Of a stretch of 64,000 nucleotides of DNA, positions 314 to 49,383 are shown piece by piece (the stretch's first letter is position 1; every line of letters begins with the position of its first letter). A program made the position numbers and the translations under genes. The notes beneath the pieces were generated by a model. The model was given only the letters and a program-made list of their open reading frames with translations, searched no databases and was not told where the DNA came from. The stretch covers positions 1-64,000 of the forward strand of contig JAHDSQ010000041.1 of the NCBI GenBank assembly GCA_018432615.1, given 5' to 3'. This stretch comes from Clostridia bacterium (lineage in GTDB: Bacteria; Bacillota; Peptococcia; DRI-13; SM3-B62).

Positions 314-1525
314 TTATTTGCGGTATCGTTCAATCAGTTTAATAATACGTTCAATGGCTTGTACGGCTGCTTGATGATCCTGTGAAAAATTAAGGCGAAA
401 GCTATCGGTAAATTGCGGGCCAAATTCCGTCCCGGGCGTAACCGTAACACCTGCTTGCAGACGCAGAATCTTGATAAAATCCTGCAGGTTGACAGTCAAT
501 TCAGGCATCCGCGGGAAAAGATAACTGCCTGCCTCTGTTGTCCTCGCTTCCATGCCCTTCACCAAACGGATTTTCGTAAGAAGGTCATCCCGAATATCCT
601 GATGTTTATTAATCCTTTCCTGCAACCAGCCCTCCGGTTCCGCAAACCATAATTTCAACACGGCCTGACTATAACCACCGGCACGTAACGACACGATGGC
701 CTGTAATTTCTCCATCCGCGCAATGATCTGGGCCGAACCGAAGGCAACGCCCAGACGGTAGCCGCTCAAGGACTCCGTTTTGGAAGGTCCAACGATTGTA
801 ATTAAGTTTTCCGGTGCAATATTTTCCGCACACAAATGAGTATATGTTCTGCCATCGAATATCTGTCTGGAGTACAATTCATCTACGATAACAGTAACAT
901 CGTATTTTTTGGCCATTTCTGCTACCAGGCGGATTTCCTCAGGCGAATAAATGACGCCGGTCGGATTGTTGGGATTAGAAAAAAGAAAAACTCTGACGCC
1001 GGATTTGAAGGCATCTTCCAACCGGTTAAGATCCAGACCCGCACGCCCGCTTATTCCCAGATAATCAAGCTTCACAGGTACGATTTCACCGTCAAAAAAC
1101 TGAACCAGCTTACGATTAGCAAAATAATCGGGTTCAACGATGGCAACCTTATCTCCCCTGGCAATAGTCGAGCCCATGGCCAAAAAAAGTGCCCCTTGTG
1201 TTCCGGGCGTTATAATAAGCCCCTCATCGGCCGAAACCGCAGCACCGGTAAAGTCCGCAAGTTTTCGGGCCAGGTCCTCACGAATGCTGCTTTTCCCGCG
1301 ATACTCCGTATAAGCCTGTTTGCCGCCAAGTTCAACGCCGGCGATAAAGGTATCCAGCGTACCTGGGATTGGCACGAATGCATCTACATCACCATGAGAA
1401 AAGTCAACAGGTTTCCCAGGTATGGCATCTCCCTTTATTTGAATTCCGGCCGTTTTTTGACGAATTTCCTGTCCGGGAGAGTTATCAACACCAAGCTTCG
1501 TGAATTTTTCCCTTAATAAATCCAT
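314..1525 (-). CDS. Pyridoxal-phosphate-dependent aminotransferase, class I/II
   Basis: This 403-residue protein has the fold-type I aminotransferase signature. Visible are NPNNPTG in the middle, VDELYSRQIF with the Asp that contacts the pyridine nitrogen, the SKTESLSGYRLG block with the Schiff-base Lys near residue 250, and a C-terminal FRLNFS with the carboxylate-binding Arg. Family members move an amino group between an amino acid and a 2-oxo acid. It is the last gene of the minus-strand catabolic locus, after the homoserine-dehydrogenase-like gene, so it may interconvert the amino and oxo forms of an intermediate. The substrate cannot be read from sequence. The ATG is preceded by a GAAGG ribosome binding site. 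Confidence 0.88.
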   Translation of the reverse strand: MDLLREKFTKLGVDNSPGQEIRQKTAGIQIKGDAIPGKPVDFSHGDVDAFVPIPGTLDTFIAGVELGGKQAYTEYRGKSSIREDLARKLADFTGAAVSADEGLIITPGTQGALFLAMGSTIARGDKVAIVEPDYFANRKLVQFFDGEIVPVKLDYLGISGRAGLDLNRLEDAFKSGVRVFLFSNPNNPTGVIYSPEEIRLVAEMAKKYDVTVIVDELYSRQIFDGRTYTHLCAENIAPENLITIVGPSKTESLSGYRLGVAFGSAQIIARMEKLQAIVSLRAGGYSQAVLKLWFAEPEGWLQERINKHQDIRDDLLTKIRLVKGMEARTTEAGSYLFPRMPELTVNLQDFIKILRLQAGVTVTPGTEFGPQFTDSFRLNFSQDHQAAVQAIERIIKLIERYRK

Positions 1526-1608
1526 GTTTCAGCCTTCTTTCTTTTGTTATCTTCTTAACCGACCAAAGGCCCCCACTGATGGTGCTCACTTCATTTATGG
1601 CCGCTAGG

Positions 1609-2646
1609 CTAAGGGAGCAGATGTGTGTGTATCACATCTTTAAGAAGCGCCGCAGCGGCTCCCAGAGGAGAACTCTTCCCACCTAAAACGGTAACCTGAC
1701 CCATGGTATCGGTCGTATAGGTGATTCCTTTTTCAGAGAAATTGATTGAAGCTAAAGGATGTGTTTTATCAAGGCGTTTGGGACTTACCTCCAGTGACAC
1801 TTCCCTTTTCCTTATCTCGGCTGTTGCCACTAGCTTGAGTACTTTCTCTTCTTTTATCGCCTTTTTAATATCTTCATAGGTTATTTCTGTAATGCCTTTT
1901 ACAGGCACATCGTTTATTCCTATCTTTGCGTCAAATAGTGTGTTGGCAATCAACACTATTTTGTTTCTGGAATCGTAACCTTCTACATCCAAGGACGGTT
2001 CTGTTTCAGCTATACCCATGATTTGAGCCTCTTTTAAAGCATCCGCATATGAACTTTTTTCCAGATTCATCTTAGTTAAAATAAAATTGGTTGTTCCGTT
2101 TAGTATCCCCTCTATTGAGGTGATGGTAGAGCCCGCGGTACTAAACCTTCCTATATCCATTGTTGGCAAGGCTGCCCCGGTAGCCGCGCTGATAAATATC
2201 CGGCTTCGGCTGACATCCGCCATTTTTTTAAGCTTATCATAGTATAAAACAAAAGGTCCCTTGTCTGCGGAAACAATATCCATCCCTTTTTCCAAAGCTA
2301 CTGTTACGGCACTATAAGCCGGTTCACCATTCCTGAGATTTGTTGGTGTCGTTTCAATTAAAATGTCAAAATCGTACTTTCTTATCGCCTCCACAATGCT
2401 CAGGCCTTTTTGTCCATAGCCGGGAAACCTTTCCGGTTGCCCACCGTTTTTTACGAACGCCATAAAATCAGTCATAGGAAGTACTCCTTTTTCAGCGATT
2501 GCAGCGCCTCCTAAATCGACAACACAGCTTATTTCAATACTCAAGCCGTACTTTTGACGCACATCTTCGGCCCTTTCTGCCACAAGCTTTAAAAATGTCT
2601 TCCCGACATTACCCAACCCACATAGAATTATTCTTTTAGTTTTCAC
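1609..2646 (-). CDS. Homoserine-dehydrogenase-family oxidoreductase (no ACT domain)
   Basis: The 345-residue protein starts with a Rossmann motif (LCGLGNVGKTFLKL) and carries the homoserine dehydrogenase core EGILNGTTNFIL, followed by DVEGYDSRNKIVLIAN with the conserved Asp and Lys of the active site. The C-terminal ACT domain of threonine-regulated biosynthetic enzymes is absent. Start is GTG, 2 bp after the stop of the thiamine-diphosphate enzyme gene, with AAGGAG inside the end of that gene, so the two are probably translationally coupled. No threonine-pathway gene is nearby. I infer a catabolic role on homoserine or a related 4-hydroxy amino acid, but a biosynthetic role is not excluded. 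Confidence 0.82.
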   Translation of the reverse strand: MKTKRIILCGLGNVGKTFLKLVAERAEDVRQKYGLSIEISCVVDLGGAAIAEKGVLPMTDFMAFVKNGGQPERFPGYGQKGLSIVEAIRKYDFDILIETTPTNLRNGEPAYSAVTVALEKGMDIVSADKGPFVLYYDKLKKMADVSRSRIFISAATGAALPTMDIGRFSTAGSTITSIEGILNGTTNFILTKMNLEKSSYADALKEAQIMGIAETEPSLDVEGYDSRNKIVLIANTLFDAKIGINDVPVKGITEITYEDIKKAIKEEKVLKLVATAEIRKREVSLEVSPKRLDKTHPLASINFSEKGITYTTDTMGQVTVLGGKSSPLGAAAALLKDVIHTHLLP

Positions 2647-2648
2647 TT

Positions 2649-4262
2649 CTATTTGTAACTCCTTGTGATTAAATTTTTATACACCGCTCCGTCAACACAA
2701 GCCTCGATGATTGCCGGGCCGCGTGTTGAAAGGACTTTAGGCAAGGATTCCTTCAATTCATTGGCGTTTTCTACCCTGAAGATGGGTACACCTAAAAACC
2801 TATCGGCAGCAAAGTATTCCCCCTCGTATAAGCTTGTCCCGTATTTCTCAATGTTTTCCCATTTTTGTTTGACTTTTATCAAGCTTAACTCCCTATCCCT
2901 CATTACCACGATGACTACATTTATGCCCAACCTGCGTGCGGTAAGAAGTTCGCCGCAGTTCATTAAAAACCCTCCGTCACCTGTAACACAAACGACAGTC
3001 TTATCCGGATTGCATATTTTTGCGGCAATGGCGGAAGGAATGCCAAAGCCCATGCTCGACCAACCGTTTGTCATGATAATTTGGTTAGGTTCTTCCTGCC
3101 TCCACAATTGTCCTATTAAATGAAGATGCGCACCCACATCCGTAGTTATGATTCCCGTTGTTGGCATTATTTCTTGCAAGGCGACCAAAAAATCGGACGG
3201 CGTAAAGGTGTTTGTCCGGGGAAGCAGTGCTTCGTACATTCTGTGCTTATTGGCCTTGATTTTTTCGGGATCCCAGTCGTATTCCGGTAGAATCAAGGAA
3301 TTTAAAAACGCCACTGAAACACCCAGACTCCCGGTTACTTCACATGCAACATCATATTCCGGCAGTATATCAGCTTCTTCGGTGTCAATATGAATCAACG
3401 GCACCTCAGGCATCCACGACTCATAATTAAACTCGATAGGGTCGTACCCTAGGCCAATTACTAAATCCGCACTTCTGTAAACATTTGCTACAATTTCGCT
3501 TTGGCAATGGAAAAGCACACCCGCATAACAGGGATGTTGGTCAGGTATAATTCCTTTGGCCATGGGTGTTACGACAACAGGTATATTGTTGTTATCTACA
3601 AACTCACGAATCGCTTGTTGCAAACCAAGTCTTACAGCCGTAAGACCTATGGCTAAAATCGGCTTTTTTGCGTTTTTTATTATTTTGGAGGCTGCTTTCA
3701 GGAAAAGAGGATTTGGTGATTGCATAGGCACTTTTGCAAAGGTATCGACAAAGGTATCAGAGTCCAAGGACTCGGCAGCAATATCAGAAGGCAACCCTAT
3801 ATGTACTGGCCCGGACACTTCTGAGACCGCAATCCTAACAGCTTTTTCTAGCGTCTCTTGAAAGTTTTCCCTAGATAGTCTGGTAGTCCATTTCGTAATA
3901 GGCTGATATAGTGCCTGATGGTCAATATTCATTTGAACTTTTCTGCCCTTATCCCTTGCTTTTACTTCGGTAGTAAAAGCAAGGAGGGGAGACCTGTCCA
4001 AAAAAGCTCCCGCCACCCCTGTTGACAAATTTGTTGCACCGGGCCCGTAGGTGGCGTGGCAGACTCCGGGAATCCCCGTTAAACGGGCGCAAACGTCCGC
4101 CATGATCCCAGCGCTTTGTTCATTTGAAACTAAAACAAATTCAATACCATGACTCCTCATTGCCTCTATGTATGGAATAGAAGGACCCCCGGGTATGCCA
4201 AACACTCTTTCCACTCCCAAAGCCTGAAGGGATTTAACAAGCTGCACCGCTAATTCTGTCAT
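2649..4262 (-). CDS. Thiamine-diphosphate-dependent enzyme, acetolactate-synthase-like
   Basis: The protein is about 537 residues with the three-domain layout of the acetolactate synthase/benzoylformate decarboxylase family. It has an N-terminal pyrimidine-binding domain with the catalytic Glu in SNEQSAGIMADV, a central domain, and a C-terminal diphosphate-binding domain with GDGGFLMNCGELLTARRLG. I chose the ATG at 4262 over a longer frame because AAAAGGAG precedes it; the extra N-terminal residues upstream do not look like the family. Acetolactate synthase, 2-oxo acid decarboxylase or a C-C lyase are all possible. No small regulatory subunit gene or other branched-chain gene is adjacent, which favours a catabolic 2-oxo acid activity within this locus. 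Confidence 0.82.
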   Translation of the reverse strand: MTELAVQLVKSLQALGVERVFGIPGGPSIPYIEAMRSHGIEFVLVSNEQSAGIMADVCARLTGIPGVCHATYGPGATNLSTGVAGAFLDRSPLLAFTTEVKARDKGRKVQMNIDHQALYQPITKWTTRLSRENFQETLEKAVRIAVSEVSGPVHIGLPSDIAAESLDSDTFVDTFAKVPMQSPNPLFLKAASKIIKNAKKPILAIGLTAVRLGLQQAIREFVDNNNIPVVVTPMAKGIIPDQHPCYAGVLFHCQSEIVANVYRSADLVIGLGYDPIEFNYESWMPEVPLIHIDTEEADILPEYDVACEVTGSLGVSVAFLNSLILPEYDWDPEKIKANKHRMYEALLPRTNTFTPSDFLVALQEIMPTTGIITTDVGAHLHLIGQLWRQEEPNQIIMTNGWSSMGFGIPSAIAAKICNPDKTVVCVTGDGGFLMNCGELLTARRLGINVVIVVMRDRELSLIKVKQKWENIEKYGTSLYEGEYFAADRFLGVPIFRVENANELKESLPKVLSTRGPAIIEACVDGAVYKNLITRSYK

Positions 4263-4344
4263 GATAAACTCCTTTTTTTTGAAAGCGGCACATAACTTAT
4301 TAAAACCAGTTATGTGCCGACTTCGCCATCTTTTATTCTGCATA

Positions 4345-5460
4345 TTATCCTTCTTTTATCTCAAACAAACTGGAGGCAAAGTTAATATCAGAAAGCACTT
4401 CAACTCCCTCGGGGCGAACCACCAAACAATCCTCTATATGATAACCTCCTACCCCGGGAACTAAGAATACCGGTTCAATACACATAACCATGTTCGGCTT
4501 GATTTCCTCTTCACTACTCACATTGAAATAGGGAGGCTCATGACAGGTAATGCCTAAACCATGACCCAGGAAATTCAAACTACCGCTGACTTTCATGATT
4601 TTTACCATATCCTCATTAAATTTGAGATATATTTCTTTGGTAGAGGCGCCGGGTTTAATCCGGTCTATACTGCGTCTGTGCACCTCATAGAGGCGGGCCC
4701 AAGTGTCGTTTTGCTCCTTGCTGGCCTTACCCACCGTGGCTGTTCTCGCTATGTCAAGGTTGAAATTCCCATAAGTCCCTAGCACATCGAAACGGACCAG
4801 TTCTCCCACTTGCAACTTTTTAGTGCTGGGCTTCACATTCACATCTGCACCACGAGAACCGGAACCCAGCGCCATCCGCGGGAACTCCACACCCCGTCGG
4901 GCCATCTCCTTCAAGCACATTCCGTACAGATCCATCTCCGTCATAGAACTGCGGGCTTCATCCCGTAGCATATTATATACTGCGCCGGTTATCTTACAGC
5001 ACTCGCGGATAGTTTCTATCTCTTCTTCTTCCTTGATGCTACGCAGCTTGAGTATGATATCCTCAGCCTCAACAATTGTCGTATTAGGCAGGTATTTTAA
5101 CAACTTGACATAGTCCGTGGCAAATAAATAGGATAATTCCACCGCGATTCTCTGGGTAGCACCTTTGGACTTTAGAAAATCGCACACCATTTGCACCGGA
5201 TCATCGGTGAACTCATTATACGCGACTACCGGCTGGATATACGAATTAGCTCGAGTGATATTCTCTTCCACGGTAACACAAATCAACTGTGCTTCACCAT
5301 CGGCCGTAATGATCGTGAAAACCCTTCTGTGCCGGTTTCTGTTGTGACTGGGAACCATGAAACCCGAGCAATAGGTGGCATTATCCGGGGAACAACAAAC
5401 AATAGCCTCTAAATCTCTTCGTTTGATTTCAGCCGCAATCTTCTTGATTGAATTAAACAT
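4345..5460 (-). CDS. M24-family metallopeptidase (Xaa-Pro aminopeptidase/creatinase-like)
   Basis: This 371-residue protein has an N-terminal creatinase-like domain (about 1-130) and a pitta-bread catalytic domain. The five expected metal ligands can be placed: two Asp in RFDVLGTYGNFNLDIART, His in GHGLGITCHEP, Glu in MCIEPVFLVPG and Glu in GYHIEDCLVV. Members cleave Xaa-Pro bonds or C-N bonds of small guanidino compounds such as creatine. Its place in a catabolic operon rather than beside efp suggests hydrolysis of the imported compound or of a dipeptide-like intermediate; this is inference. The ATG follows TAGGAGTGAG. Confidence 0.85.
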   Translation of the reverse strand: MFNSIKKIAAEIKRRDLEAIVCCSPDNATYCSGFMVPSHNRNRHRRVFTIITADGEAQLICVTVEENITRANSYIQPVVAYNEFTDDPVQMVCDFLKSKGATQRIAVELSYLFATDYVKLLKYLPNTTIVEAEDIILKLRSIKEEEEIETIRECCKITGAVYNMLRDEARSSMTEMDLYGMCLKEMARRGVEFPRMALGSGSRGADVNVKPSTKKLQVGELVRFDVLGTYGNFNLDIARTATVGKASKEQNDTWARLYEVHRRSIDRIKPGASTKEIYLKFNEDMVKIMKVSGSLNFLGHGLGITCHEPPYFNVSSEEEIKPNMVMCIEPVFLVPGVGGYHIEDCLVVRPEGVEVLSDINFASSLFEIKEG

Positions 5461-5508
5461 TGACTCACTCCTAACTCTAGTATTTAATTCTCTTTTGTAT
5501 GAACAAGA

Positions 5509-6201
5509 TTATATTTCCAGATATTTTGAATAGCCCGGCCTGGCAAAATCTTTGATCCCTTCTAAGCCAATCTGCAGCATAACTGCCATCTCCACTACCC
5601 TTCGTCCCATATTAAAGCTTCCCATCATAGCCGCTTCGTCATCAACGATAGTACCCTTTTCCCATGATGAAGCCCGACCGACAACCCCAACCTTAGCGTA
5701 TGGAGCTTCCCCGGCCACCGGTACGCAACGCATCAGTAATATATGCTCTACCACATGGGTCACAGAAAAATCTTGTCCGCCATGAACGCTCCCACCCTGG
5801 GTAATAACTCCGGCCGCCTTGAGAAAGCGGGGTGGTGTTTTCTTATATGCGGCTAAAACCGAATGACCCAGACGGTCTATTGCTGCCTTCATCTGGGATG
5901 TCATCCCCCTGTGGTATACGGGATAGGCATAAACGATTCCATCGGCGGCTTTCCATTTCTCCGCAAACTCCTGAAAATCATCCTTGATTACACAATATTT
6001 TTTAGTGGAGCATTGGAGGCATCCAATGCAGGGACTAACTTTTTTACCGGCAAAATCATACTGCATTATTTCCAGATCCACATGCTCCGACAATTCCCGT
6101 GCACCCTTAATAGCCTCGTTTACGAGAATTGAAGTATTGCCGTTCTTGCGGGGACTGCCGTTGACAAACAATAATTTAATTTTTGCCTTTTTAATACCCA
6201 T
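5509..6201 (-). CDS. NADPH-dependent FMN reductase / iron-sulfur flavoprotein-like
   Basis: The 230-residue product opens with a flavodoxin-like loop (LLFVNGSPRKNGNTS) and then has CIGCLQCSTKKYC, the Cys spacing seen in iron-sulfur flavoproteins related to NADPH-dependent FMN reductases. Pro-Val-Tyr-His in YPVYHRGMTSQMK fits the FMN-binding loop. The ATG at 6201 has GAAAGGAG in front; the longer frame would overlap the neighbouring gene by 31 bp and lacks a site. It lies right after the molybdenum hydroxylase subunits and could pass electrons to or from them, or carry out a separate reduction in the pathway. Confidence 0.8.
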   Translation of the reverse strand: MGIKKAKIKLLFVNGSPRKNGNTSILVNEAIKGARELSEHVDLEIMQYDFAGKKVSPCIGCLQCSTKKYCVIKDDFQEFAEKWKAADGIVYAYPVYHRGMTSQMKAAIDRLGHSVLAAYKKTPPRFLKAAGVITQGGSVHGGQDFSVTHVVEHILLMRCVPVAGEAPYAKVGVVGRASSWEKGTIVDDEAAMMGSFNMGRRVVEMAVMLQIGLEGIKDFARPGYSKYLEI

Positions 6202-6227
6202 GACAATGCTCCTTTCTTTTATCTCAT

Positions 6228-7082
6228 TCATTCGCCAATTGACGGCATATATTCCCATTGCTCCAGCATTTCCCGGAGCAAGGCGGCTGCCATATCCTGC
6301 TTATACTCGATAGAACCTCTCAAAGAATTGCGTCGCTTACCGGATAGAGAATCAACCTCCTGCCATACTGCAGCACAAATAGTATCTATATCATATCCTT
6401 TTGCCAACAAATCCTGAGCACGTCCGGCTCTTATCGGAGTGGGTGCCAGGGCACCAAAAGAGACATACCAAACCTCACCGTTTCCCGTATCATAGCAGCT
6501 TAACCCCAAAGCCGTAATCGCTAAGGCTAAGGCGCGTCGCAAAGCCAGTTTGCGGTATTGGGAACGCCGGGGCAGTTTGATTTCCGCACTAACAATTATC
6601 TCATCCTCTGCCGCTGCATTCTTTTGTGGCCCAACAAAGAAATCCTCAACTGATACTTTTCTGGTGCCTCCGGCAGAAGCCAAAACAACTTGCGTATCCA
6701 AACCCATCAAAACCACGTTAATATCACCGCCGGGCGACGATGTACCTAAATTGCCCCCTACCGTGGCGATGTTTCGTATCTGCGGAGAGCCTACTTCCAA
6801 GGCGGCCATTTTGAGGCCATCCAGGCAAGACGGAATTAAAGGTGATCTGCCTATTTCGGCAAAGGTAACTGCAGCCCCTAACAATAAGGCATCATCGACT
6901 ACCTCTATTTTCCTCATTTCCTCTACCTGGGAAACATCTAAAATCACTTTTCCTGTCATATCTTCATCGGCTTTTTTTATAACCAGATCCGTACCTCCGG
7001 CTACGATGAGGCATTTGCCACGTTTTTCTTTTAAAACTTTGGTGGCTTCGCTTAATCGATTTGGGATAATATATTGCGGCAT
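6228..7082 (-). CDS. Molybdenum hydroxylase (xanthine dehydrogenase family), FAD subunit
   Basis: The 284-residue protein matches the CoxM/XdhB type FAD-binding subunit. It has VAGGTDLVI near residue 30 and TVGGNLGTSSPGGD near residue 110, both FAD-contacting loops, and a C-terminal CO-dehydrogenase flavoprotein domain. It takes electrons from the 2Fe-2S subunit and passes them to NAD+ or another acceptor. Gene order 2Fe-2S, molybdopterin, FAD is tightly packed (1 bp from the large subunit gene). AAAGGGGG precedes its ATG. The physiological substrate of the complex is unknown. Confidence 0.9.
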   Translation of the reverse strand: MPQYIIPNRLSEATKVLKEKRGKCLIVAGGTDLVIKKADEDMTGKVILDVSQVEEMRKIEVVDDALLLGAAVTFAEIGRSPLIPSCLDGLKMAALEVGSPQIRNIATVGGNLGTSSPGGDINVVLMGLDTQVVLASAGGTRKVSVEDFFVGPQKNAAAEDEIIVSAEIKLPRRSQYRKLALRRALALAITALGLSCYDTGNGEVWYVSFGALAPTPIRAGRAQDLLAKGYDIDTICAAVWQEVDSLSGKRRNSLRGSIEYKQDMAAALLREMLEQWEYMPSIGE

Positions 7083-7083
7083 A

Positions 7084-9216
7084 TTATTCGCCCCCTTTTC
7101 CGCTTTGTGCCTTTTTCATGGCAAAATATACTCTTTCCGCAGTGATGGGCAACTCCTTCAGCCGTACGCCTACTGCTTTATTAACGGCATTGACAATTGC
7201 GGACGCTGTTGCAACCAGGGCCGGCTCACCAACCCCTTTTGCACCATAAGGACCACTGGCAGCAGGATCTTCGATAATTATACTAATCATTTCCGGCACA
7301 TCTACAGCTGTTGGGATTATATATTCATGAAATGAAACTGTACGCGCTTCCAGATAATTCTCACTAAGGGCATAGCCCGCACCCATGCAAATACCACCTT
7401 CAATTTGGCCCTTAACCATCTGCTTGTTGATAGCTCGTCCTACATCATGAGCGGCTACTACCCGCAGAAGTCTCACTTCACCCGTTAGTTTATTAACCTC
7501 CACGTCGGCTAGTTGGACAGCAAAAGCATATTCCGGATAGGGCGAACCATAATTGGTATCCTTTTCAAGAGGCGGCTTGTCCGGAATAAAAGTATGTTCT
7601 ACCATATAGGTTCTGTCCGGGTTAAAGTCGGCTGAGGAAAGCTGTTTCTTCAGTTTTTGGCATCCTTCCTCCAAGGCACGTCCTGCGGTATAGGTAATGC
7701 GACTGGCGGAGGTAATACCCGCATCCGGGCAGGTATCGCTATCAGCCCAGACCAGGGTAATATCTTTCAAAGGCATGTTCATGGCATGAGCGGCAATTTG
7801 CAGCATGGCTTGACAACATCCCTGACCAATCTCTGTAACACTGCTGAATACTGTTAATTTACCATTATTATATTCCAGCCGGACCGTGGCCGGGTCGACA
7901 CGACCGGTCTTGCCAATTCCGAAATACATACAGGCGAGTCCCCGCCCTCGAGAATATCCGACCGGCGCTTCATCTAACGGGTTATTTTTACGCCACTCAT
8001 CGAGAGCGTCCAAACAAGACGATAATCCTACACTGCTATCTAAAAGTTGCCCGGTAATAGTACGGCTACCAACCTTAAGACAATTCTTGCGCCGCAACTC
8101 CAAGGGATCGATTTTCAATGCCTCTGCCACCTGATCCAGTTGGCTTTCCAGGGCAAAATTTATTTGCGGAGTCCCATAACCGCGCATGGCTGAGGTTGGT
8201 GTATTATTGGTATAAACCAGTTTCAGCTCGATATCCACGTTGTCCACAACATAGCAACCGGCACCATGGACGACCATTCTCTTGCAGATAGCCGGAGCGG
8301 AAAAACTGTAAGCTCCGTTATCACAAAGGATATTGGCCTTGACGCCCAGGATGGTGCCATCTTTCCGGACTGCAGTGGTGTAAACAATATCGGCAGGCTG
8401 TCTCTTATATGTAATAAGAAACACTTCCCGACGGGTTAAGCGCATTAATGCCGGGCGTCCGTAGAGATACGTAGCCAAAGCCACAAACGGCTCAAAGTAA
8501 TAGTCTGTTTTTCCACCGAAGGCACCTCCCACGTTCGGATGCCTCACACAGATGCGCTCCTGAGGAAGCCCTAAATGACTGCTTAAAGAGTTAATCAGAT
8601 AATACGTATCCTGAATCTCACTATAGACAATAATTCTATCGCCTTCCATTGCGGCATAGCACGCATCCGGTTCCATATAAGAATGCTCTATCCTTGGAGT
8701 GCGATAGCGATTTTCCACAATCAAATCAGCCTCGGCAGCGGCCCTTTCAAAGTCCCCCCTCCGCAGCTTCATCACATCGACCAGGTTATCACTATCGGGA
8801 TGTACTCGGGGAGCGTTCTTCGCCAAAGCCTCCTCTACACTGAGCACAGGAGGCAATTCTTCATAGTCGAGTACAACAGCGGCTACACCGGCCTCAGCAG
8901 CTTGCCTGCTTTCGGCTACTACCACAGCTACCATCTCACCTTTATAGTTGAGCCGCTCGGTAGGAAGAATCATGTTATCCTTTATCTGCGCCCCTCGCTT
9001 GTGCTCGCCGGGAAAATCCGAACCCGTTATGACGCCCACAACTCCCGGGATACTCAAAGCGGTACTTTTATCAATACCTAACAAATTCGCCCTAGCTACA
9101 GGAGATAAAACAGGGCGCAACCACAAGGTATCTTTCGGAACTGTATCCCCACCGTATTTGGCGATTCCTTGCGACTTGTCAAAGGCGTCTATGCGCTTTG
9201 CATTCTCCCCAATCAT
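7084..9216 (-). CDS. Molybdenum hydroxylase (xanthine dehydrogenase family), molybdopterin subunit
   Basis: This 710-residue subunit should carry the molybdenum cofactor. Recognisable blocks are GGAFGGKTDYYFEPFVALA, AMRGYGTPQINFALESQLD, GQGCCQAMLQIAAHAM, and near the C-terminus PYGAKGVGEPALVATAS with the catalytic Glu of the family. Such enzymes hydroxylate a carbon of an N-heterocycle or aldehyde using water. The start overlaps the 2Fe-2S gene stop as ATGA (9213-9216), which indicates coupled translation. It is shorter than many xanthine dehydrogenase large subunits (commonly 750-800 residues). No cofactor insertion gene such as xdhC is in the locus. Confidence 0.92.
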   Translation of the reverse strand: MIGENAKRIDAFDKSQGIAKYGGDTVPKDTLWLRPVLSPVARANLLGIDKSTALSIPGVVGVITGSDFPGEHKRGAQIKDNMILPTERLNYKGEMVAVVVAESRQAAEAGVAAVVLDYEELPPVLSVEEALAKNAPRVHPDSDNLVDVMKLRRGDFERAAAEADLIVENRYRTPRIEHSYMEPDACYAAMEGDRIIVYSEIQDTYYLINSLSSHLGLPQERICVRHPNVGGAFGGKTDYYFEPFVALATYLYGRPALMRLTRREVFLITYKRQPADIVYTTAVRKDGTILGVKANILCDNGAYSFSAPAICKRMVVHGAGCYVVDNVDIELKLVYTNNTPTSAMRGYGTPQINFALESQLDQVAEALKIDPLELRRKNCLKVGSRTITGQLLDSSVGLSSCLDALDEWRKNNPLDEAPVGYSRGRGLACMYFGIGKTGRVDPATVRLEYNNGKLTVFSSVTEIGQGCCQAMLQIAAHAMNMPLKDITLVWADSDTCPDAGITSASRITYTAGRALEEGCQKLKKQLSSADFNPDRTYMVEHTFIPDKPPLEKDTNYGSPYPEYAFAVQLADVEVNKLTGEVRLLRVVAAHDVGRAINKQMVKGQIEGGICMGAGYALSENYLEARTVSFHEYIIPTAVDVPEMISIIIEDPAASGPYGAKGVGEPALVATASAIVNAVNKAVGVRLKELPITAERVYFAMKKAQSGKGGE

Positions 9217-9695: not shown

Positions 9696-9739
9696 TTCCT
9701 TATCCTCCTCTGTTGCATGAATCCTTCAACCCTCCAAGT

Positions 9740-10912: not shown

Positions 10913-10924
10913 CTTTATTCACCT

Positions 10925-11191
10925 CTATTTTTTCTTTAACTGTTCCTTACACTGCTCCTCAATATCTTCATCACTGATTATCTCCACATATTCCTCTTTC
11001 CGTCCCATATCAATGACCATGACCAGCGCAAAAACAAAGATAATACCAATCTTGATCAAGAAATGGAGATTCCAGATGCGCATATAAAAAATCGTTGTTC
11101 CGGCCAATACCAAAAACACCCATGAAGCCCACTCATTAACAAAACGAAGCAACCCATTATTCTTTTTGTCGTCAATTGCCTGGTCTCTCAT
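10925..11191 (-). CDS. Small two-helix membrane protein of unknown function
   Basis: The 88-residue protein has two hydrophobic segments, around WASWVFLVLAGTTIFYMRIW and LIKIGIIFVFALVMVIDMG, then a charged tail (EEYVEIISDEDIEEQCKE). The ATG at 11191 follows GGGGGAGATAAT; upstream in-frame residues lack support. It is the last gene before the IS110 insertion and the nearest preceding gene on its strand is the TRAP permease. It could be an accessory membrane subunit of that transporter, but I do not recognise the family. Confidence 0.6.
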   Translation of the reverse strand: MRDQAIDDKKNNGLLRFVNEWASWVFLVLAGTTIFYMRIWNLHFLIKIGIIFVFALVMVIDMGRKEEYVEIISDEDIEEQCKEQLKKK

Positions 11192-11224
11192 ATTATCTCC
11201 CCCTTGTATTATAGAGTAGTAGTT

Positions 11225-11442
11225 ATTAGAGCCCCTCTCCAAGGGCTTGTGCTAAACTGTAAGGGATGCTGTGGATTGGTTCACTCCTCCTACCACCAGA
11301 TGGTTCACGAAAGGCTCCAACCACAGCCCTTTGCAGATTTGTTAATCAGTTAGATACCGCCAGACGGTTTATTTGGAACAAGGTTACAAGAGCAAAGTGT
11401 ACTGTGGATGCAGCATCAAATAATATCGCTGGAGGTTTTACT
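11225..11442 (+). ncRNA. Candidate IS110 bridge RNA region
   Basis: The noncoding DNA just 5' of the transposase folds strongly. AGCCC/GGGCT forms a small hairpin at 11230-11247. AAGGG, GCTGTGG and TTGG (11261-11279) pair with CCAACCACAGCCCTT (11317-11331), broken only by AT and A bulges. The stem encloses a loop of about 37 nt that contains GGTTCAC, a copy of a 7-mer overlapping the loop's 5' edge. A stem with a large internal loop is what known IS110 bridge RNAs show. Location and structure are seen; the RNA itself is inferred. Confidence 0.4.
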
Positions 11443-12619
11443 ATGATTTGCGTAGGAATTGATGTAGCTAAAGACAAACATGACTGCTCCATTATCAGTT
11501 CGGAGGGCGAAGTCCTTGCGGGCGTATTTACCATCCCGAACGATATGACCGGTTTCAACTGCCTGTTGCAGAGGATCCAGGCTTGCTCTGCCGGACAGGA
11601 CAAAATTAAAGTAGGACTTGAGGCAACCGGACACTACAGCTACAACATTCTCGGGTTTCTGCTTGACAACGGCCTGGACAGCTTTGTCATTAACCCCTTG
11701 CACACCAACCTTTACCGGAAAAGTCTCAGTCTCAGAAAGACGAAGACCGACCGTGTCGATGCGCGAACGATTGCAATGATGCTCATGTCTGATGTGGGCC
11801 TCAAGCCCTACACAGACATAGCTTACCACAACGAAGAGGTAAAATCACTTACCAGATACCGTTTCGGCAAAGTAAAAGAACGAGCCCAGCTCAAGCAGTC
11901 GGTGACCAGACTGGTGTGCATCCTGTTCCCAGAGCTGGAAAAGCTGGTGCCAACACTCCATATGGCCTCTGTCTATGCTTTGCTTGAAGAGCTTCCGGGG
12001 GCGCACCAGATTGCGGCAGCACATCTAACACACTTAAAAACTGTTCTCCATGACGCTTCAAAAGGCCGCTACAGCCGGGGCAAGGCCATTGAGATACGTG
12101 AGGCTGCTAAATCATCCATTGGTTCCAGGATGCCGGCGAAGTCATTGGAACTTCGGCACACCATCCCCCTCATTCGGGAACTGGACGCTGAGATTGAAGA
12201 GATTGAGTCCGCCCATCCAAAACATTATGGATGAAATTCATTCTCCTATTACAACCATCCCCGGCATTGGGTTTCGCATGAGAGCTATGATTCTTGCCAA
12301 GACGGGCGATTTCTCCCGCTTCGATTCCCCGGATAAAGTGCTGGCTTATGCCGGTCTGTCGCCTTCTACATACCAATCCGGGCAGCTTGTTAACGGTTAT
12401 GCCCATATGGAGAAGCGCGGCTCCAAATACCTGCGGTTTGCCATCTTCAACGCTGCCAAGTATGTTTGCCACTGGGACCCAACCTTTGCTGCTTATCTCG
12501 CTAAGAAACGGGCCGAGGGCAAGCACTACAACGTTGCCATTTCCCACGCTGCCAAAAAACTGGTGCGGCTCATATATGCCTTGGAGAGAACCAGAGAACC
12601 TTACCGTCAGGTAGCTTGA
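11443..12619 (+). pseudogene. IS110-family transposase, frameshifted
   Basis: The N-terminal DEDD/RuvC-like domain starts at an ATG after GGAGG (GIDVAKDKHDCS, then GLEATGHYSYN and KTDRVDART with acidic catalytic residues). The C-terminal Tnp_20 domain (TTIPGIGFRMRAMILAKTG, YAGLSPSTYQSG with the presumed nucleophilic Ser) is in the next frame. The break lies at 12211-12214: GAGTCCGCCCATCC would read through as ...ESAIQNIMDE if one C of the CCC were absent. All other parts are intact, so this is a recent single-base insertion or a sequencing error. As written the protein ends after six wrong residues and is inactive. Confidence 0.9.
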
Positions 12620-12744
12620 TTTACTTAAATAACCTGCACGTCGTCTTAACAGACGTCTGCTTTGCTATACCCTTTGCTGAATCATCGATTTTTGGCATCC
12701 CTCCTCATTTTGAGGCTTGACTTTTAATAGTTAGTCTTTCGCCA

Positions 12745-14664
12745 TTACGCATTAGTATTTGAAGGATAGATGTCTTGGTTTTTTTTCTTAAAAATTGTAA
12801 AGTGAAGAACCACATAAAGCGCCATGATGGAAAAGCCGATTATATCGGTAGTCAAACCACCTGCTATCAGAAACATTCCGCCACTGAAGATAAGAATACG
12901 CCATAGCCAGCCCATACTGTGTATAAACCAGCCCTCGTTTGCCGCCGTAACCAGAAGCACCCCACAGATGGCGGTAAAACAAGTTTGAATTATTTTCAAG
13001 ACTGAACCGCTCATAAGTAGGCTCGGAGAATATACAAACATAAAGGGCACGATAAAAGAGGGTAAGGCGATTCGCCAAGCTGTCCAGCCCACCTGCATAC
13101 CCTTGGCACCTGCTAAGGAGGCTGCTGCAAACGAAGCCACACAAACAGGTGGTGTGATGAAGCTTAAGATTCCGAAATAGAAACAGAACAAATGAGCTGC
13201 CATCTGGGGAACTCCCATTTGGATTAGGGAGGGGATAACCAGGGCAGAAAGTGTTACATAAACACCTACCGCCGGCATTCCCATGCCCAGGATCAAAGAT
13301 ACCAATGCGGTAAGCATCAGACCGATCAGCATATTCCCACCGGAAAGGCTGACCAGTTCCCGAGAAAAACGGGCGCCAAGACCGGACTGATCAAGACATC
13401 CGATAACAATGCCCGCGGCTGCGCAGGCAATTACTACAATAAAGCTGGCCTCGATGGACTTACAAAGCGACATAAAATATTGCTTACTGCTCATCCTTGA
13501 TTTGGGATTAACCTGAACCATAACAACTAGTAAAACAATGCCTACAATAGCGGATTTGGTTGTGGAATACCCCTTTACCAGCATAAAAGTAAGAACAATC
13601 AGTGGCACAAGATACTGTATACCATCCACTAAAACCTTCAATATTTGAGGTTTTTCTTTCATCATAGGCTTTAACCCCCGCCTTCTGGCACGAAAATCCA
13701 CGGCCATAAAAACAGCGAGATAATAAAGAAGTGCGGGAATAACAGCTGCCTTGATAACCTCCACATAGGGCACCTTTAAAAACTCTGCGATGAGGAAGGC
13801 CGCAGCTCCCATAATAGGAGGCATAATCTGACCGCCGGTAGAGGCAACAGCTTCTACCGCAGCGGCAAAGCGAGGTTTGTACCCATATTCCTTCATCAAG
13901 GGTATGGTAACCGTACCGGTAGTAACCACATTGGCAACGGCAGCACCGGAAACTGTTCCGAATATGCTGCTGGCTACAACAGCGGCTTTAGCCGGTCCGG
14001 CCACCAAGCGCCCGGTAAACACCTGGGCCAGCCGAAGAAAATACGATCCTGCCCCTGACACTGCCAGTAGACCGCCAAAAATGAGAAACACCATAATATA
14101 TCCTGTTACCGCGCCAATGGCGGTACCAAATATCCCTAATTGTTGCACAAATATACTGTCTGCAATAGCTCTTGGGCTAACAGAAGGACCGAAAAATATT
14201 CCCGGAAGATATCTGGCAAAGCAGGCGTGAAAGAAAAAGAATCCGGAAATAATTACAAGCGGCCAACCCATGACCCTCCTGGTTGCTTCCAAAACAATAA
14301 TAATATAGATAAAGGCAATTACAATATCCTTTTGCTCCATGGTACGCCACATAAAGTCTTTGATATCAAGCATTGAATAGAAAATGGTATAGAGTAAGAA
14401 CAAGACAACTGCTGCATCAATAACTGTAAAGATATTTGGCTTATCGGTCCACTTTTTACGTCCCAAAGGCCTGAGAATAAAAATCAAAACCATAATAATC
14501 GTAACATTGAAGCCTCTATCCAACCTGGCAATGGGCATGCCGAAGAAAGCTGTCAATAAATGATAGCAACCCAGACAAAGCGCCAAAGCAGCCACAAACA
14601 TGGCAATAGTTCTATATATAGTATTTTCCTCTTTACTGCCAATCAGACGAAATACTTCATTCAC
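12745..14664 (-). CDS. TRAP transporter fused permease (4TM + 12TM, TAXI type)
   Basis: This 639-residue, very hydrophobic protein joins the small and large TRAP permease subunits, as is usual for TAXI-type systems. The DctM-like part contains GTVSGAAVANVVTTGTVTIP, STGGQIMPPIMGAAAFLIAE and LGMGMPAVGVYVTLSALVIP, typical of the sodium-coupled transport domain. It partners the binding protein encoded just upstream in the operon and should import the substrate of this locus. Start is supported by GGAGGTG. A hairpin separates it from the binding-protein gene. Confidence 0.92.
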   Translation of the reverse strand: MNEVFRLIGSKEENTIYRTIAMFVAALALCLGCYHLLTAFFGMPIARLDRGFNVTIIMVLIFILRPLGRKKWTDKPNIFTVIDAAVVLFLLYTIFYSMLDIKDFMWRTMEQKDIVIAFIYIIIVLEATRRVMGWPLVIISGFFFFHACFARYLPGIFFGPSVSPRAIADSIFVQQLGIFGTAIGAVTGYIMVFLIFGGLLAVSGAGSYFLRLAQVFTGRLVAGPAKAAVVASSIFGTVSGAAVANVVTTGTVTIPLMKEYGYKPRFAAAVEAVASTGGQIMPPIMGAAAFLIAEFLKVPYVEVIKAAVIPALLYYLAVFMAVDFRARRRGLKPMMKEKPQILKVLVDGIQYLVPLIVLTFMLVKGYSTTKSAIVGIVLLVVMVQVNPKSRMSSKQYFMSLCKSIEASFIVVIACAAAGIVIGCLDQSGLGARFSRELVSLSGGNMLIGLMLTALVSLILGMGMPAVGVYVTLSALVIPSLIQMGVPQMAAHLFCFYFGILSFITPPVCVASFAAASLAGAKGMQVGWTAWRIALPSFIVPFMFVYSPSLLMSGSVLKIIQTCFTAICGVLLVTAANEGWFIHSMGWLWRILIFSGGMFLIAGGLTTDIIGFSIMALYVVLHFTIFKKKNQDIYPSNTNA

Positions 14665-14738
14665 TAAAGGACACCTCCTATAATGTTGATCAGACAGGGC
14701 ACCTATTTCGTTCGAAAATACCTTCCCAAACCAAGTTG

Positions 14739-14806
14739 AAAAAACTGTATAAACAGCCCTGAGGAGACCCGGAAGGAATATGCAATATTTTCCGGGTCCT
14801 CTCAGG
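14739..14806 (-). terminator. Intercistronic hairpins between TAXI binding protein and permease
   Basis: On the minus strand, arms at 14758-14774 and 14790-14806 pair 14 of 17 positions (CCTGAG and ACCCGGAA blocks flank a short mismatch). Right after comes CTGT-TTATA-like-ACAG followed by six T (14739-14756), a small rho-independent-terminator shape. Because the permease gene follows in the same direction with its own ribosome binding site, this probably acts as a partial terminator or 3'-end stabiliser that leaves binding protein mRNA in excess. Confidence 0.65.
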
Positions 14807-14821
14807 TTTAAAAATTAGTCT

Positions 14822-15868
14822 TTAAAAATCAAACTTTCCTGCCTTCCAGTCATCATAAAACTGCTGCGCAGCGGGATGAATCGGCATATTAACAACACCA
14901 TCAAACATGGAATCCGGGGTCAATGAGGCAATGCGTTGTTCTGTGGCAGCAACTGCATCGAGGTTGGAATAGAAAGCCACACACAGATTATAAACTACAT
15001 CATCAGGAATATCGTCACGGCAAAAAACGTTCTGTACCGAACCCACTGCCAATACCTGATCTTCGGCAGTAAAGTCATAGATACCTACATCAGGCACCAT
15101 GGCGGAAACAACACCGGGGCCACTGTCTTTGATCTTTGCCACAACCTCTTCACTGATAGGTACCAGCTTGACACCGGTGGAAGCCTCAAGAGTCAAAGCA
15201 TTGCTGTTGGGATGATTAGCAAACAAACACGATGCATCGGCGTTTTTATCCTTAACCATAGTGGTGCCATCACCATAAGAAGCATTAGTAATAACCCCGC
15301 CGGCATCTTTAATATCATCATAGGTGTATCCGTGAGCATTTAAAACCATGCGGAAAAAGTTTTCGGCGATAGAGTTAACATCCCCTACCACAACATGCTT
15401 GTCCAGAAGGTCCTCAAAGCTTTCAATGTCACTGTTGGGAGTTGTCATAATAGTTAGGTACAGAGGAGTCATTGTTAATACATGACGGATATTTTTGAGG
15501 GGTTTACCTTCATAATCCCCGGTGCCCACATAAGCGGCCTCTTGGCTGTTAGTGTAGGTAAAGCCGATATCTGCTTCCCCCGTGGAAACATTGTTCATAT
15601 TACCAATAACCGTTCCCGGGCTGACAGAGGTACGCACATTATCCATGGTCTCTTCGAGAGACATTGCCAAGGCAGACATTTCCGAATACCATGCACCCCC
15701 TGTTGAACCTGCCGCCATTCTCAAAAGGATTGGTTCTCTCGCTTCTCCTCCTCCCTCTGCCGTCTCCCCATTATTTTGATTACAACCAACAAATACCACC
15801 ATAGAAATAAGTAGAATCATAAATACAGACAAGATACTCATCGGGTTCCAGCTAGTTGCTTTTTTCAT
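14822..15868 (-). CDS. TAXI-family TRAP transporter solute-binding lipoprotein
   Basis: The 348-residue protein begins with a signal peptide ending in a lipobox (VVFVGCNQN), so it should be tethered to the outer face of the membrane. The mature part has the TAXI hallmark near its start, LRMAAGSTGGAWYSEMSALA, and later ADIGFTYTNSQEAAY. TAXI proteins bind glutamate-like or other organic acids and hand them to the fused permease. The ATG at 15868 follows AAAGGGTGG; a GTG three codons earlier lies within that site. The ligand is unknown, but it defines the entry substrate of the locus. Confidence 0.9.
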   Translation of the reverse strand: MKKATSWNPMSILSVFMILLISMVVFVGCNQNNGETAEGGGEAREPILLRMAAGSTGGAWYSEMSALAMSLEETMDNVRTSVSPGTVIGNMNNVSTGEADIGFTYTNSQEAAYVGTGDYEGKPLKNIRHVLTMTPLYLTIMTTPNSDIESFEDLLDKHVVVGDVNSIAENFFRMVLNAHGYTYDDIKDAGGVITNASYGDGTTMVKDKNADASCLFANHPNSNALTLEASTGVKLVPISEEVVAKIKDSGPGVVSAMVPDVGIYDFTAEDQVLAVGSVQNVFCRDDIPDDVVYNLCVAFYSNLDAVAATEQRIASLTPDSMFDGVVNMPIHPAAQQFYDDWKAGKFDF

Positions 15869-16077
15869 TATGGCCACCCTTTCTTTATTCGTTTTTTTAC
15901 CTCAAGTGAGAATTGGAGACTCGTAAACAGCTAACACCTGACTCAGAAATCCGCTTGATTCATAAATACCATTTATCACCCCCGACCTAATTACGCATAA
16001 TCCTGATATATTGTGCTAATTTTCACATTCACTTTAAGGTGTCTTTATGTTTCTATCTTAATGCAAGATTGTTGCGA

Positions 16078-17181
16078 TTATTTTGTGTCGATACCTGCGC
16101 CGATTTTACGTGCTTCCTCAAGGCTGCATCCGGTTAAACCCATTTTTTCCAGGTTCATTCCTATCTCATGATAATCAACCTTGCTGATAATTGAAGCTAG
16201 CTGAATCAGGGAATCAATAACAGGGGTTTTGACTCCACTAAGTTTTCCTAAGGAACTAAACGCCACCAAACCATTGGAAACATCCTCTACAAGATAGCGG
16301 TCCCGGAGACTCTTGGGGCATTTAATCCTGCTGTTAGGTTTAGAGTTTTGCAAAGCCCCATATATGGTTCCACTGGCATACCCAACCTCGTCGGTATACC
16401 CCCCTTGATAAAACTGTTCGACCAAAGATACATTAGCAATCCCGAAAGCTTCAGCTACAGCCCTTCTTTCCGCATCTGCAGCCTCCATTACATCGCACAC
16501 GGCAGGACTGGAGGCCTCCAAATAATAGAGACAATCGCAGTCGTTTTCAATCCAGCCCGCATTCATGATCATACCCGCCGGATGAATGATAGGATTCATA
16601 TTAAAAAGAATACTATGGATTACTCCGGACATTTTATGGAAGGAAAACATGCCATTAAGAATCCCCCAGATACGCGAACCCTCGTAACCGGTGAGGGAAA
16701 CTGCGCCTATGGTTTGCCTCACTTGATAAATATTGACCAGATCCGGTCTCTCCAGTCGGGTGGAATAGGTTAACGTACATGTCTCCATCAAATCCAGCCG
16801 ATATTTGGACATTTCTTCACACCAGATATTACGAAACAAAAGTGATGTGCCGGAGCCGGGGATAATTGCAATTCCCAATCCTTCACGGAGATATGGTTTT
16901 AGAAGTTTGGCATAATATTCATGTGTATTACGGGGAACAACGACAATTACATGTTCTACGTCCCCCATCGTGCGTGCTAAGTCACTGCCAACATAGGCAA
17001 AATTCACAAAACCAGAGCCAAAAACCCCTTCATAATTTATACCCCCCAAAGCCTGGATAGGTTCCAATCTTGTCCCGGGACGGTTGTAAAGGTTAACCTC
17101 ATGCCCCTCCAGTGTAAAGTGTACCGCAATAGAGCAGCCACCGTTACCCGCTCCTATAACCGCAATTTTTGCCACATTCAC
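16078..17181 (-). CDS. NAD/NADP octopine/nopaline (opine) dehydrogenase family protein
   Basis: The 367-residue protein opens with a dinucleotide-binding motif (IAVIGAGNGGCSIAVHFTLEGHEV) and has the two-domain layout of opine dehydrogenases, with HPAGMIMNAGWIE near residue 210, where the family keeps a catalytic His. Opine dehydrogenases reductively join, or oxidatively split, a secondary amine formed from an amino acid and a 2-oxo acid. In an operon with an importer and an aminotransferase the splitting direction is more likely. The start overlaps the regulator's stop by 4 bp (17178-17181), so the two are coupled. Confidence 0.85.
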   Translation of the reverse strand: MNVAKIAVIGAGNGGCSIAVHFTLEGHEVNLYNRPGTRLEPIQALGGINYEGVFGSGFVNFAYVGSDLARTMGDVEHVIVVVPRNTHEYYAKLLKPYLREGLGIAIIPGSGTSLLFRNIWCEEMSKYRLDLMETCTLTYSTRLERPDLVNIYQVRQTIGAVSLTGYEGSRIWGILNGMFSFHKMSGVIHSILFNMNPIIHPAGMIMNAGWIENDCDCLYYLEASSPAVCDVMEAADAERRAVAEAFGIANVSLVEQFYQGGYTDEVGYASGTIYGALQNSKPNSRIKCPKSLRDRYLVEDVSNGLVAFSSLGKLSGVKTPVIDSLIQLASIISKVDYHEIGMNLEKMGLTGCSLEEARKIGAGIDTK

Positions 17182-17936
17182 TCCTCCTTGTTATCACCTT
17201 TCAGCATGGCGATATCCGCAAATACATTTTTCGTATTGGTAATATGGTCTTCCATAGCTTTAAGCGCTTTTTCCAAATCACCTCTCTTTAAAGCATTAAC
17301 GATATTATAATGCTCCTCAGCGGATTTAGTCAGCCTTCCCTCACGGCTTAAAACTGCCCGTCTATCGATACTGATCAAATCGGCGACCATAGCCGTCAAA
17401 CTACCCAGGAGCTTATTGCCACTCAACTCAGCCAATAAAACATGAAAGCGCATATCCAGCTTGGTAGCCAGTGAAATATTACTTGGATTTGTCTGGGCAC
17501 ACTCCCTCATATTTTCAACTATTCCTTCTATTTCGCTAAAATCCACCTCTGTGTGTCTACTACAGACTAGGCCGACGATTTTAGCTTCAAGGGCGGAACG
17601 CACTTCTAAAATCTCCATAACCTCCGTGCTGTTGACATGGGCCCATTTATTCCACACATTGAAGCGACTTTCAGCACCATTTGAATCAAGTACAAACGCT
17701 CCTTTGCCACGTTCCACCCGCACAACGCCCATCAACTCCAAAGCGCGCAAAGCCTCGCGGACACAAGGCTGGCTTACACCAAATTCCATAGCCAAAATAC
17801 GCTCGGAATCCAGCTTGTCTCCGTCTTTTAAAGTGCCCTCTTCAATCCTGGCCATTATTTGTTCCATCACATTTTCTGATGACCGTTTATGCCTTACCCT
17901 GGAAAACATTTTATTGTCTGTTACTTTGTCTACCAT
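17178..17936 (-). CDS. GntR-family (FadR subfamily) transcriptional regulator
   Basis: The 252-residue protein has an N-terminal winged helix (about 15-85) with the GntR signature LKDGDKLDSERILAMEFGVSQPCVREALRALELMG, given here in two parts in the protein, and an all-helical FCD ligand-binding domain (about 100-235) with metal-site-like His in MRFHVLLAELSGN and EHYNIVNAL. The ATG at 17936 has GGAGG 7 nt upstream. It heads the minus-strand catabolic locus and probably represses it in the absence of a pathway metabolite. A 7-3-7 palindrome overlapping its likely promoter is a candidate operator. Confidence 0.9.
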   Translation of the reverse strand: MVDKVTDNKMFSRVRHKRSSENVMEQIMARIEEGTLKDGDKLDSERILAMEFGVSQPCVREALRALELMGVVRVERGKGAFVLDSNGAESRFNVWNKWAHVNSTEVMEILEVRSALEAKIVGLVCSRHTEVDFSEIEGIVENMRECAQTNPSNISLATKLDMRFHVLLAELSGNKLLGSLTAMVADLISIDRRAVLSREGRLTKSAEEHYNIVNALKRGDLEKALKAMEDHITNTKNVFADIAMLKGDNKEE

Positions 17937-18060
17937 TAAGCATCCTCCGTTTAGATTTATTATCAACAACCAATCAAACCTATGTATGCCTAAAATCACA
18001 CTGATAGTGAACTCTCATCGCTATCCTAATTATAATTCATACAGTAAACACAACGTATAA

Positions 18061-18105
18061 TAGTAACCTAGTTACTAAGTTACCATGTTCAATAATCGTT
18101 GTCAA
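18061..18105 (-). promoter_or_regulatory. Promoter and candidate GntR operator for the catabolic locus
   Basis: On the minus strand a TTGACA -35 box (18105-18100) is followed after 17 bp by TAACTT (18082-18077), a weak -10. A perfect palindrome, TAGTAAC-CTA-GTTACTA (18061-18077), touches the -10 and start region. Short palindromes with a TnGT...ACnA outline are typical FadR-subfamily sites, so this is likely the autoregulatory operator. The remainder of 17937-18299 holds a terminator and no gene. Confidence 0.55.
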
Positions 18106-30120: not shown

Positions 30121-30186
30121 AATGCTCCCTCCTATTACCATAACAAATTTTTATAACCATTCTATCATATAAATTGTTACTTCGTA

Positions 30187-31491: not shown

Positions 31492-31526
31492 CGCCTTCAT
31501 TCCTCCTGTCTTTTAAACCTATTATA

Positions 31527-35026: not shown

Positions 35027-35029
35027 TTC

Positions 35030-35518: not shown

Positions 35519-35540
35519 AATAACCTCCCTACAAAATCAA

Positions 35541-35583
35541 GTTATAATAATGGGATGCTATAAAAGCATCCCATTATTATAAC
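35541..35583. repeat. Intercistronic 19-bp inverted repeat between dctP and dctQ
   Basis: A perfect 19-bp stem (arms 35541-35559 and 35565-35583) with a 5-nt loop begins 15 nt after the dctP stop and ends 22 nt before the dctQ start. There is no T-run on the minus strand, so it is more likely a 3'-end stabiliser/processing element than a full terminator. It would keep binding-protein mRNA above permease mRNA. Confidence 0.8.
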
Positions 35584-35598
35584 TTGTTAAATTATTAA

Positions 35599-36591: not shown

Positions 36592-36650
36592 TCTCAAAAT
36601 CCCCCTTCATCATTTTATTAAAGCCTTCCTCACAAATAATCACAGAATCA

Positions 36651-48223: not shown

Positions 48224-48225
48224 CA

Positions 48226-49356: not shown

Positions 49357-49383
49357 ATCGACCTCCAACCTGCTGCAGGTTCT

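Follow-up and report, generated by a model that had tools for sequence, protein, structure and literature searches.

The described systems closest to the locus studied here each resemble it in part. In the degradation of aminopolycarboxylates, NtaA-type monooxygenases cleave C–N bonds and glyoxylate is passed to malate synthase; ectoine hydrolase and creatinase are C–N hydrolases of the M24 fold from small-molecule catabolic loci; the bacterial opine dehydrogenases include the solved N-(1-D-carboxylethyl)-L-norvaline dehydrogenase (1bg6); and importers of the TAXI-TRAP class take up carboxylated compounds. The utilization of canavanine via homoserine has also been discussed (PMC10018355). We analyzed a 64,000-nucleotide stretch of a Clostridia bacterium genome (assembly GCA_018432615.1, contig JAHDSQ010000041.1, positions 1 to 64,000; hereafter the window) and studied a set of catabolic genes encoded on its minus strand between positions 314 and 17999. 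It very likely encodes a genuine pathway for the breakdown of an uncommon nitrogen-containing compound. As far as could be shown, the locus is ordinary looking but undescribed, and it contains a conserved core of three enzymes: an enolase-superfamily enzyme of the muconate-lactonizing-type subgroup (MLE), an M24-family hydrolase (M24), and an opine-type dehydrogenase (ODH). No description of this gene combination was found in the literature searched.

Each core enzyme retains the hallmarks of its family. ODH scores 126.3 bits against PF02317 (cut-off 30) and has both the opine dehydrogenase family domain and the catalytic histidine. Its nearest solved structure is 1bg6 (E 1.1e-48), from a soil bacterium; the two agree in fold and length, and His200 of the HP motif aligns between them. 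Unlike 1bg6, ODH of the window is set among M24, MLE, and a molybdenum (Mo) hydroxylase. In an alignment of six MLE members, the KxK motif (K173, K175), the Asp/Glu/Asp metal ligands (D203, E230, D253), the second lysine (K280), and Glu308 are invariant; all but Glu308 are the residues by which the muconate-lactonizing-type subgroup was recognized. As a muconate or chloromuconate cycloisomerase (TIGR02534), MLE reaches 229 bits and stays below the cut-off of 334.95. M24 has all five ligands (D, D, H, E, E) of a metal-dependent family member, and they are likewise intact in its relatives in G013, a genome of the window's order, and G063, a distant member of Bacillota. Similar to ectoine hydrolase and creatinase, M24 combines its fold with a small-molecule catabolic setting, but it scores only 67.7 bits against the ectoine hydrolase DoeA model (TIGR02993), far below the cut-off of 613.

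The remaining described systems match less of the locus. Likeness to aminopolycarboxylate degradation is seen in relatives of the locus: an NtaA/DmoA-family monooxygenase is paired with a flavin reductase in some, and D-amino acid dehydrogenase and malate synthase G occur together in others. In the window, no such monooxygenase was found in the locus, which has the Mo hydroxylase instead. With the canavanine route, the window shares an enzyme dependent on pyridoxal phosphate (PLP) and a homoserine step, and homologues of its aminotransferase-fold enzyme (AT) are also found in Rhizobiales. The route as described (PMC10018355) lacks MLE, ODH, and the Mo hydroxylase, however, and nothing marks AT of the window as a canavanine lyase.

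The evidence for a conserved core comes from the neighborhoods of its relatives. We searched 72,556 plasmids by tblastn with each protein separately, using E limits of 1e-30 for M24, 1e-60 for MLE, and 1e-30 for ODH. The M24 and MLE searches returned the identical 13 records (nine Aminobacter, three Shinella, and one Phyllobacterium), while the 14 records found with ODH comprised 12 of the 13 shared ones, an Aminobacter plasmid with a partial, transposon-flanked copy of the locus, and a Cytobacillus plasmid with ODH but without the locus. In the four plasmid loci examined, the gene order was MLE, M24, amidohydrolase, ODH, DpsA-like protein, second amidohydrolase, unknown protein, tautomerase, and isochorismatase-fold protein, some loci having a D-amino acid dehydrogenase, malate synthase G, and a heme-binding protein between the first amidohydrolase and ODH. 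Cytosine deaminase, GntR, RidA, and a GTP-binding protein followed in three of the four, and an ABC-transporter gene came directly in the fourth.

Similar neighborhoods were found in genomes. The MLE family was present in 7 of 249 genomes of the rhizobial order to which Aminobacter belongs, with M24 beside or near it in six (one of these stretches ends at the contig end within M24) and ODH within the ~20 kb fetched in five. Among these rhizobial loci, L151 has a Mo hydroxylase near the core as well as a flavin reductase and a monooxygenase of the NtaA/DmoA family (525.9 bits, cut-off 279.7), L153 has another luciferase-like monooxygenase, and L154 combines the core with a fused TRAP permease and a TAXI-type binding protein. 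Among the relatives of the core, the luciferase-like monooxygenase comes with a TctABC importer. In a sample of 398 genomes of the phylum, the MLE family was rare, the only strong match besides the window being in G063 (E 2.1e-145). There, the three core enzymes share a single run with a proline-racemase-family enzyme, a tautomerase, a UbiD decarboxylase, a three-subunit Mo hydroxylase, and a second M24; a further search around G063 for more examples reached that genome alone. In G013, MLE lies beside M24 and a GntR. As a background, 80 AT-centered loci (1.42 Mb) contained matches to M24 in five cases and to MLE or ODH in none. The MLEs of the module cluster together to the exclusion of the chosen outgroups (Shimodaira–Hasegawa-like approximate likelihood-ratio test support 99 in a quick tree); the ODH tree, its branches long and weakly resolved, was not taken to show co-inheritance. 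Judged from these neighborhoods, the association of MLE, M24, and ODH exceeds chance, recurring in Alphaproteobacteria and distant Bacillota. An FAD (flavin adenine dinucleotide)-dependent oxidoreductase elsewhere in the window (30187–31500) shares 52% identity with an enzyme encoded where the G063 module ends and adjoins genes for a RidA-like protein (29656–30141) and a DUF6917 protein (31527–31952).

Several observations weigh against the catabolic reading of the locus proposed below. Many of the 13 plasmids are closely related and thus not independent cases, no ODH match was found in the 40 kb searched in G013, and MLE of a further genome (G486) is accompanied by neither M24 nor ODH. Within the window itself, ODH is not adjacent to MLE, being separated by the TAXI and TRAP genes and an IS110 element, and the thiamine-diphosphate (TPP) enzyme and the homoserine dehydrogenase (HSD) of the locus were found with the core nowhere else. 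Finally, the alphaproteobacterial M24 proteins have lost metal ligands that the window copy keeps. Because of this loss, the M24 step may differ chemically between lineages, and an identical substrate throughout the module is not needed. We propose only tentatively, at well below an even chance, that MLE, M24, and ODH make up an undescribed module common to Alphaproteobacteria and anaerobic Bacillota, in which the Mo hydroxylase and iron-sulfur flavoprotein of the anaerobes would replace the NtaA-type monooxygenases of the aerobes. Such a module would suggest a testable oxygen-independent counterpart of aerobic C–N bond cleavage. The three enzymes offer a signature usable for searches and assays, and the association narrows the substrate class of enolase-superfamily, M24, and opine-dehydrogenase proteins that otherwise lack annotation.

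A first-pass annotation of the window had named the gene families of the locus, all of which are present and correctly named, and had described them as one minus-strand run. From position 17999 down to 314, the minus strand encodes GntR, ODH, TAXI, the fused TRAP permease, a small membrane protein, and MLE, followed by three Mo-hydroxylase subunits, an iron-sulfur-flavoprotein-like reductase, M24, the TPP enzyme, HSD, and AT. This order is broken by the IS110 transposase gene on the plus strand, which the first-pass annotation had not mentioned; as the element follows the permease and precedes the small protein, the supposed run consists of two stretches parted by an insertion. The element is frameshifted, occurs nowhere else in the genome, finds no counterpart in G001, a sister species and the other member of the genus compared, and is an insertion outside the pathway. 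The right-hand genes are set apart by it and by gaps of 157–200 bp. From MLE to HSD (10912 to 1609), the genes are tightly packed, with intergenic gaps of –4 to 48 bp, which suggests a single transcript for this stretch; 83 bp separate HSD from AT. The first base of the window is also the first of its contig, and the left end of the locus beyond AT is therefore out of view. The G+C content of the cluster (43–48%) overlaps that of the remaining window, and a horizontal island was rejected on base composition. Scans for Rfam families and tRNAs gave no matches, and the small protein matched neither Pfam nor NCBIfam.

Upstream of gntR, we found a perfect 17-bp palindrome, TAGTAACCTAGTTACTA, which is a candidate operator of the GntR regulator. 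The exact sequence occurs once in the window's genome and is absent from G001, G013, and G063 in a DNA pattern search. Both the binding protein and the fused permease of the importer score above their cut-offs, placing it in the TAXI-TRAP class. A second TRAP transporter, consisting of a DctM permease and neighboring open reading frames (ORFs), lies beside a short-chain dehydrogenase at 33743–37397 of the window.

The Mo hydroxylase and its neighbor have a counterpart in the same genome: a paralogous cluster on another contig (C8; L121, 8425–19064) also brings M24 and the flavoprotein together with a Mo hydroxylase. That cluster contains a BKACE enzyme as well, and a methionine-gamma-lyase-family enzyme and acyl-CoA ligase subunits adjoin it. 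The flavoprotein proved unusable as an anchor for the locus: relatives were found in nine other genomes of the phylum sample, and the ~20-kb stretches of eight contained no match to the Mo hydroxylase, MLE, or ODH. Its true start is likely near 6201.

The left-hand enzymes behave differently from the core. The 80 best relatives of AT, 64–95% identical and coming from Bacillota, Proteobacteria, and others, have genes of the RidA, aspartate-dehydrogenase-like, hydantoinase, and M20 types as neighbors instead of the gene set of the window, although a few of the loci also have a TPP enzyme. In 30 of the 80 (e.g., L030), a RidA-family gene occurs in the same stretch and mostly directly after AT, which hints at a possible enamine or imine product of AT. 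The nearest relatives of HSD, in six Bacillota genomes, lacked the core genes in the fetched stretches, and those of the TPP enzyme were weak, the best plasmid match having a semialdehyde dehydrogenase and an amidase as neighbors and an aspartate dehydrogenase ~10 kb away. As an acetolactate synthase, the TPP enzyme remains below every cut-off (413.2 of 509 bits for NF006187, the other listed models being lower). HSD is the second and short copy in the genome; the other copy, on a separate contig (C32), is an ordinary one. Since AT and the nearest relatives of HSD and the TPP enzyme sit in other neighborhoods, these three genes are no fixed part of the combination; the TPP enzyme and HSD are lineage-specific partners of the core, and the membership of AT in the locus is uncertain. 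The first-pass annotation had held that homologs scattered into unrelated neighborhoods would refute a coherent locus: this applies to AT, HSD, and the TPP enzyme but not to MLE, M24, and ODH, which are found together across phyla.

The comparison with G001 (locus L009) is informative about the history of the left-hand genes. The two genomes are collinear through hpt and guaA at 92% identity, and AT of G001 is 94% identical to that of the window at the DNA level, with only ~2 kb between guaA and AT. These ~2 kb contain genes read from the sequence as an AbiE-like toxin-antitoxin pair, flanked by a 65-nucleotide direct repeat (92%) of the guaA 3′ end (L009 7869–7933 and 9836–9900), making the guaA 3′ end a possible island attachment site. 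MLE has no match in G001. Directly before AT, 62 bp (L009 9906–9967) are 88.7% identical to window positions 2061–2000, inside HSD. As G001 keeps AT together with this HSD remnant, the common ancestor had HSD beside AT, an arrangement that is thus ancestral to the genus. Loss of the whole cluster in G001 is the simplest account; alternatively, the genes beyond HSD may have been gained in the window's lineage.

Together, the gene families, the intact motifs of MLE, M24, and the Mo-binding subunit, the tight MLE-to-HSD run, and the conservation of the core give an even chance that the locus is regulated and serves the catabolism of an N-substituted amino acid taken up from outside, namely a secondary amine of the opine-like kind that probably contains a ring or an amide. 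The steps proposed here draw on the enzyme families and their neighbors. The FCD-GntR regulator, acting at the palindrome, would control the unit, and a carboxylated substrate would be imported by TAXI-TRAP. The Mo hydroxylase would then oxidize the carbon next to the nitrogen with oxygen from water, passing electrons to the iron-sulfur flavoprotein, and MLE would catalyze an isomerization, epimerization, or ring opening. M24 would hydrolyze the resulting amide or lactam, and ODH would cleave the secondary amine by oxidation, yielding an amino acid together with a 2-oxo acid. The 2-oxo acid would enter central metabolism via the TPP enzyme and a four-carbon aldehyde or alcohol (aspartate semialdehyde or homoserine) via HSD, the presence of a second HSD copy fitting such a product; AT may or may not participate. 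The aerobic relatives carry NtaA/DmoA-type or luciferase-like monooxygenases, or amidohydrolases, in place of the Mo hydroxylase of the window, and the theme common to them may be the opening of an N-substituted or N-heterocyclic amino acid at the carbon next to nitrogen. The import, hydroxylation, isomerization, and C–N cleavage suggested in the first-pass annotation thus agree with the genes co-occurring with the core elsewhere, while the substrate and the order of steps are provisional.

Alternatively, the locus could consist of two or three separate units, with GntR, ODH, TAXI, and TRAP serving one substrate, the MLE-to-HSD genes another, and AT being unrelated. The insertion and the wide gaps dividing the right-hand genes would fit such a division, as would the occurrence of AT without the cluster in G001 and in the 80 fetched relatives and of ODH alone in Cytobacillus. 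We nevertheless consider it unlikely, as ODH goes with MLE and M24 in G063 and in most alphaproteobacterial loci, and in L154 a TAXI-TRAP importer accompanies these core genes.

Breakdown of a purine-, pyrimidine-, or hydantoin-type ring, with the Mo hydroxylase acting like xanthine dehydrogenase and the other enzymes handling the ring-opening products, is less probable still. The alphaproteobacterial loci do add deaminase-type and allantoinase/hydantoinase-type amidohydrolases, cytosine deaminase, and an isochorismatase-fold hydrolase, but no amidohydrolase is found among the window genes at 314–17999, and the Mo-binding subunit stays far short of all xanthine-dehydrogenase cut-offs (464.9 of 830.45 bits for TIGR03311 and 457.6 of 780 for NF043082). 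The genes guaA and hpt are ancestral neighbors, present in G001 without the cluster. A biosynthetic role, with ODH running toward synthesis and the locus producing an opine-like metabolite, is very improbable: although the best-matching solved dehydrogenases, including the more distant staphylopine dehydrogenase, are opine synthases, the locus has an importer rather than an exporter as well as a Mo hydroxylase, and malate synthase G and D-amino acid dehydrogenase in the relatives point to breakdown.

Table 1. Features of the catabolic locus, in window coordinates, with the basis of each assignment
Feature	Position	Strand	Basis
Candidate operator	18061–18085	.	Perfect inverted repeat TAGTAACCTAGTTACTA (18061–18077) and overlapping imperfect copy (18069–18085)
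FCD-type (FadR subfamily) GntR regulator	17178–17999	-	Pfam GntR and FCD
Opine-type dehydrogenase (ODH)	16078–17181	-	Pfam Octopine_DH; 4-bp overlap with gntR
TAXI solute-binding protein	14822–15877	-	TIGR02122, 180.8 bits (cut-off 84.35)
Fused TRAP permease	12745–14664	-	TIGR02123, 606.6 bits (cut-off 320.65)
IS110-family transposase gene, two overlapping frames	11266–12619 (11266–12234; 12050–12619)	+	Pfam DEDD_Tnp_IS110, NF033542 (first frame)
Small predicted membrane protein, ~88–105 amino acids	10925–11242	-	ORF and translation
Enolase-superfamily enzyme, muconate-lactonizing-type subgroup (MLE)	9740–10912	-	Pfam MR_MLE
Mo hydroxylase, 2Fe-2S subunit	9213–9695	-	Pfam Fer2_2 and Fer2
Mo hydroxylase, Mo-binding subunit	7084–9216	-	Pfam MoCoBD_1/2; GVGEP glutamate in sequence; solved relatives
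Mo hydroxylase, FAD subunit	6228–7082	-	Pfam FAD_binding_5
Flavodoxin-like reductase, iron-sulfur-flavoprotein type, Cx2Cx2Cx5C	5509–6258	-	Pfam FMN_red, sequence
M24-family hydrolase (M24)	4345–5460	-	Pfam Peptidase_M24; ligand check
TPP enzyme, acetolactate-synthase-like	2649–4343	-	Pfam TPP_enzyme N/M/C
Homoserine dehydrogenase (HSD), 345 amino acids	1609–2646	-	NF005290, 317.2 bits (cut-off 286)
Aminotransferase-fold PLP enzyme (AT), PRK06207 subfamily	314–1525	-	NF004854, 709.1 bits (cut-off 464)

Farther along the window, positions 41576–55006 contain genes for glycogen synthesis and breakdown (GlgA, GlgD, GlgB, phosphorylase, and 4-alpha-glucanotransferase).

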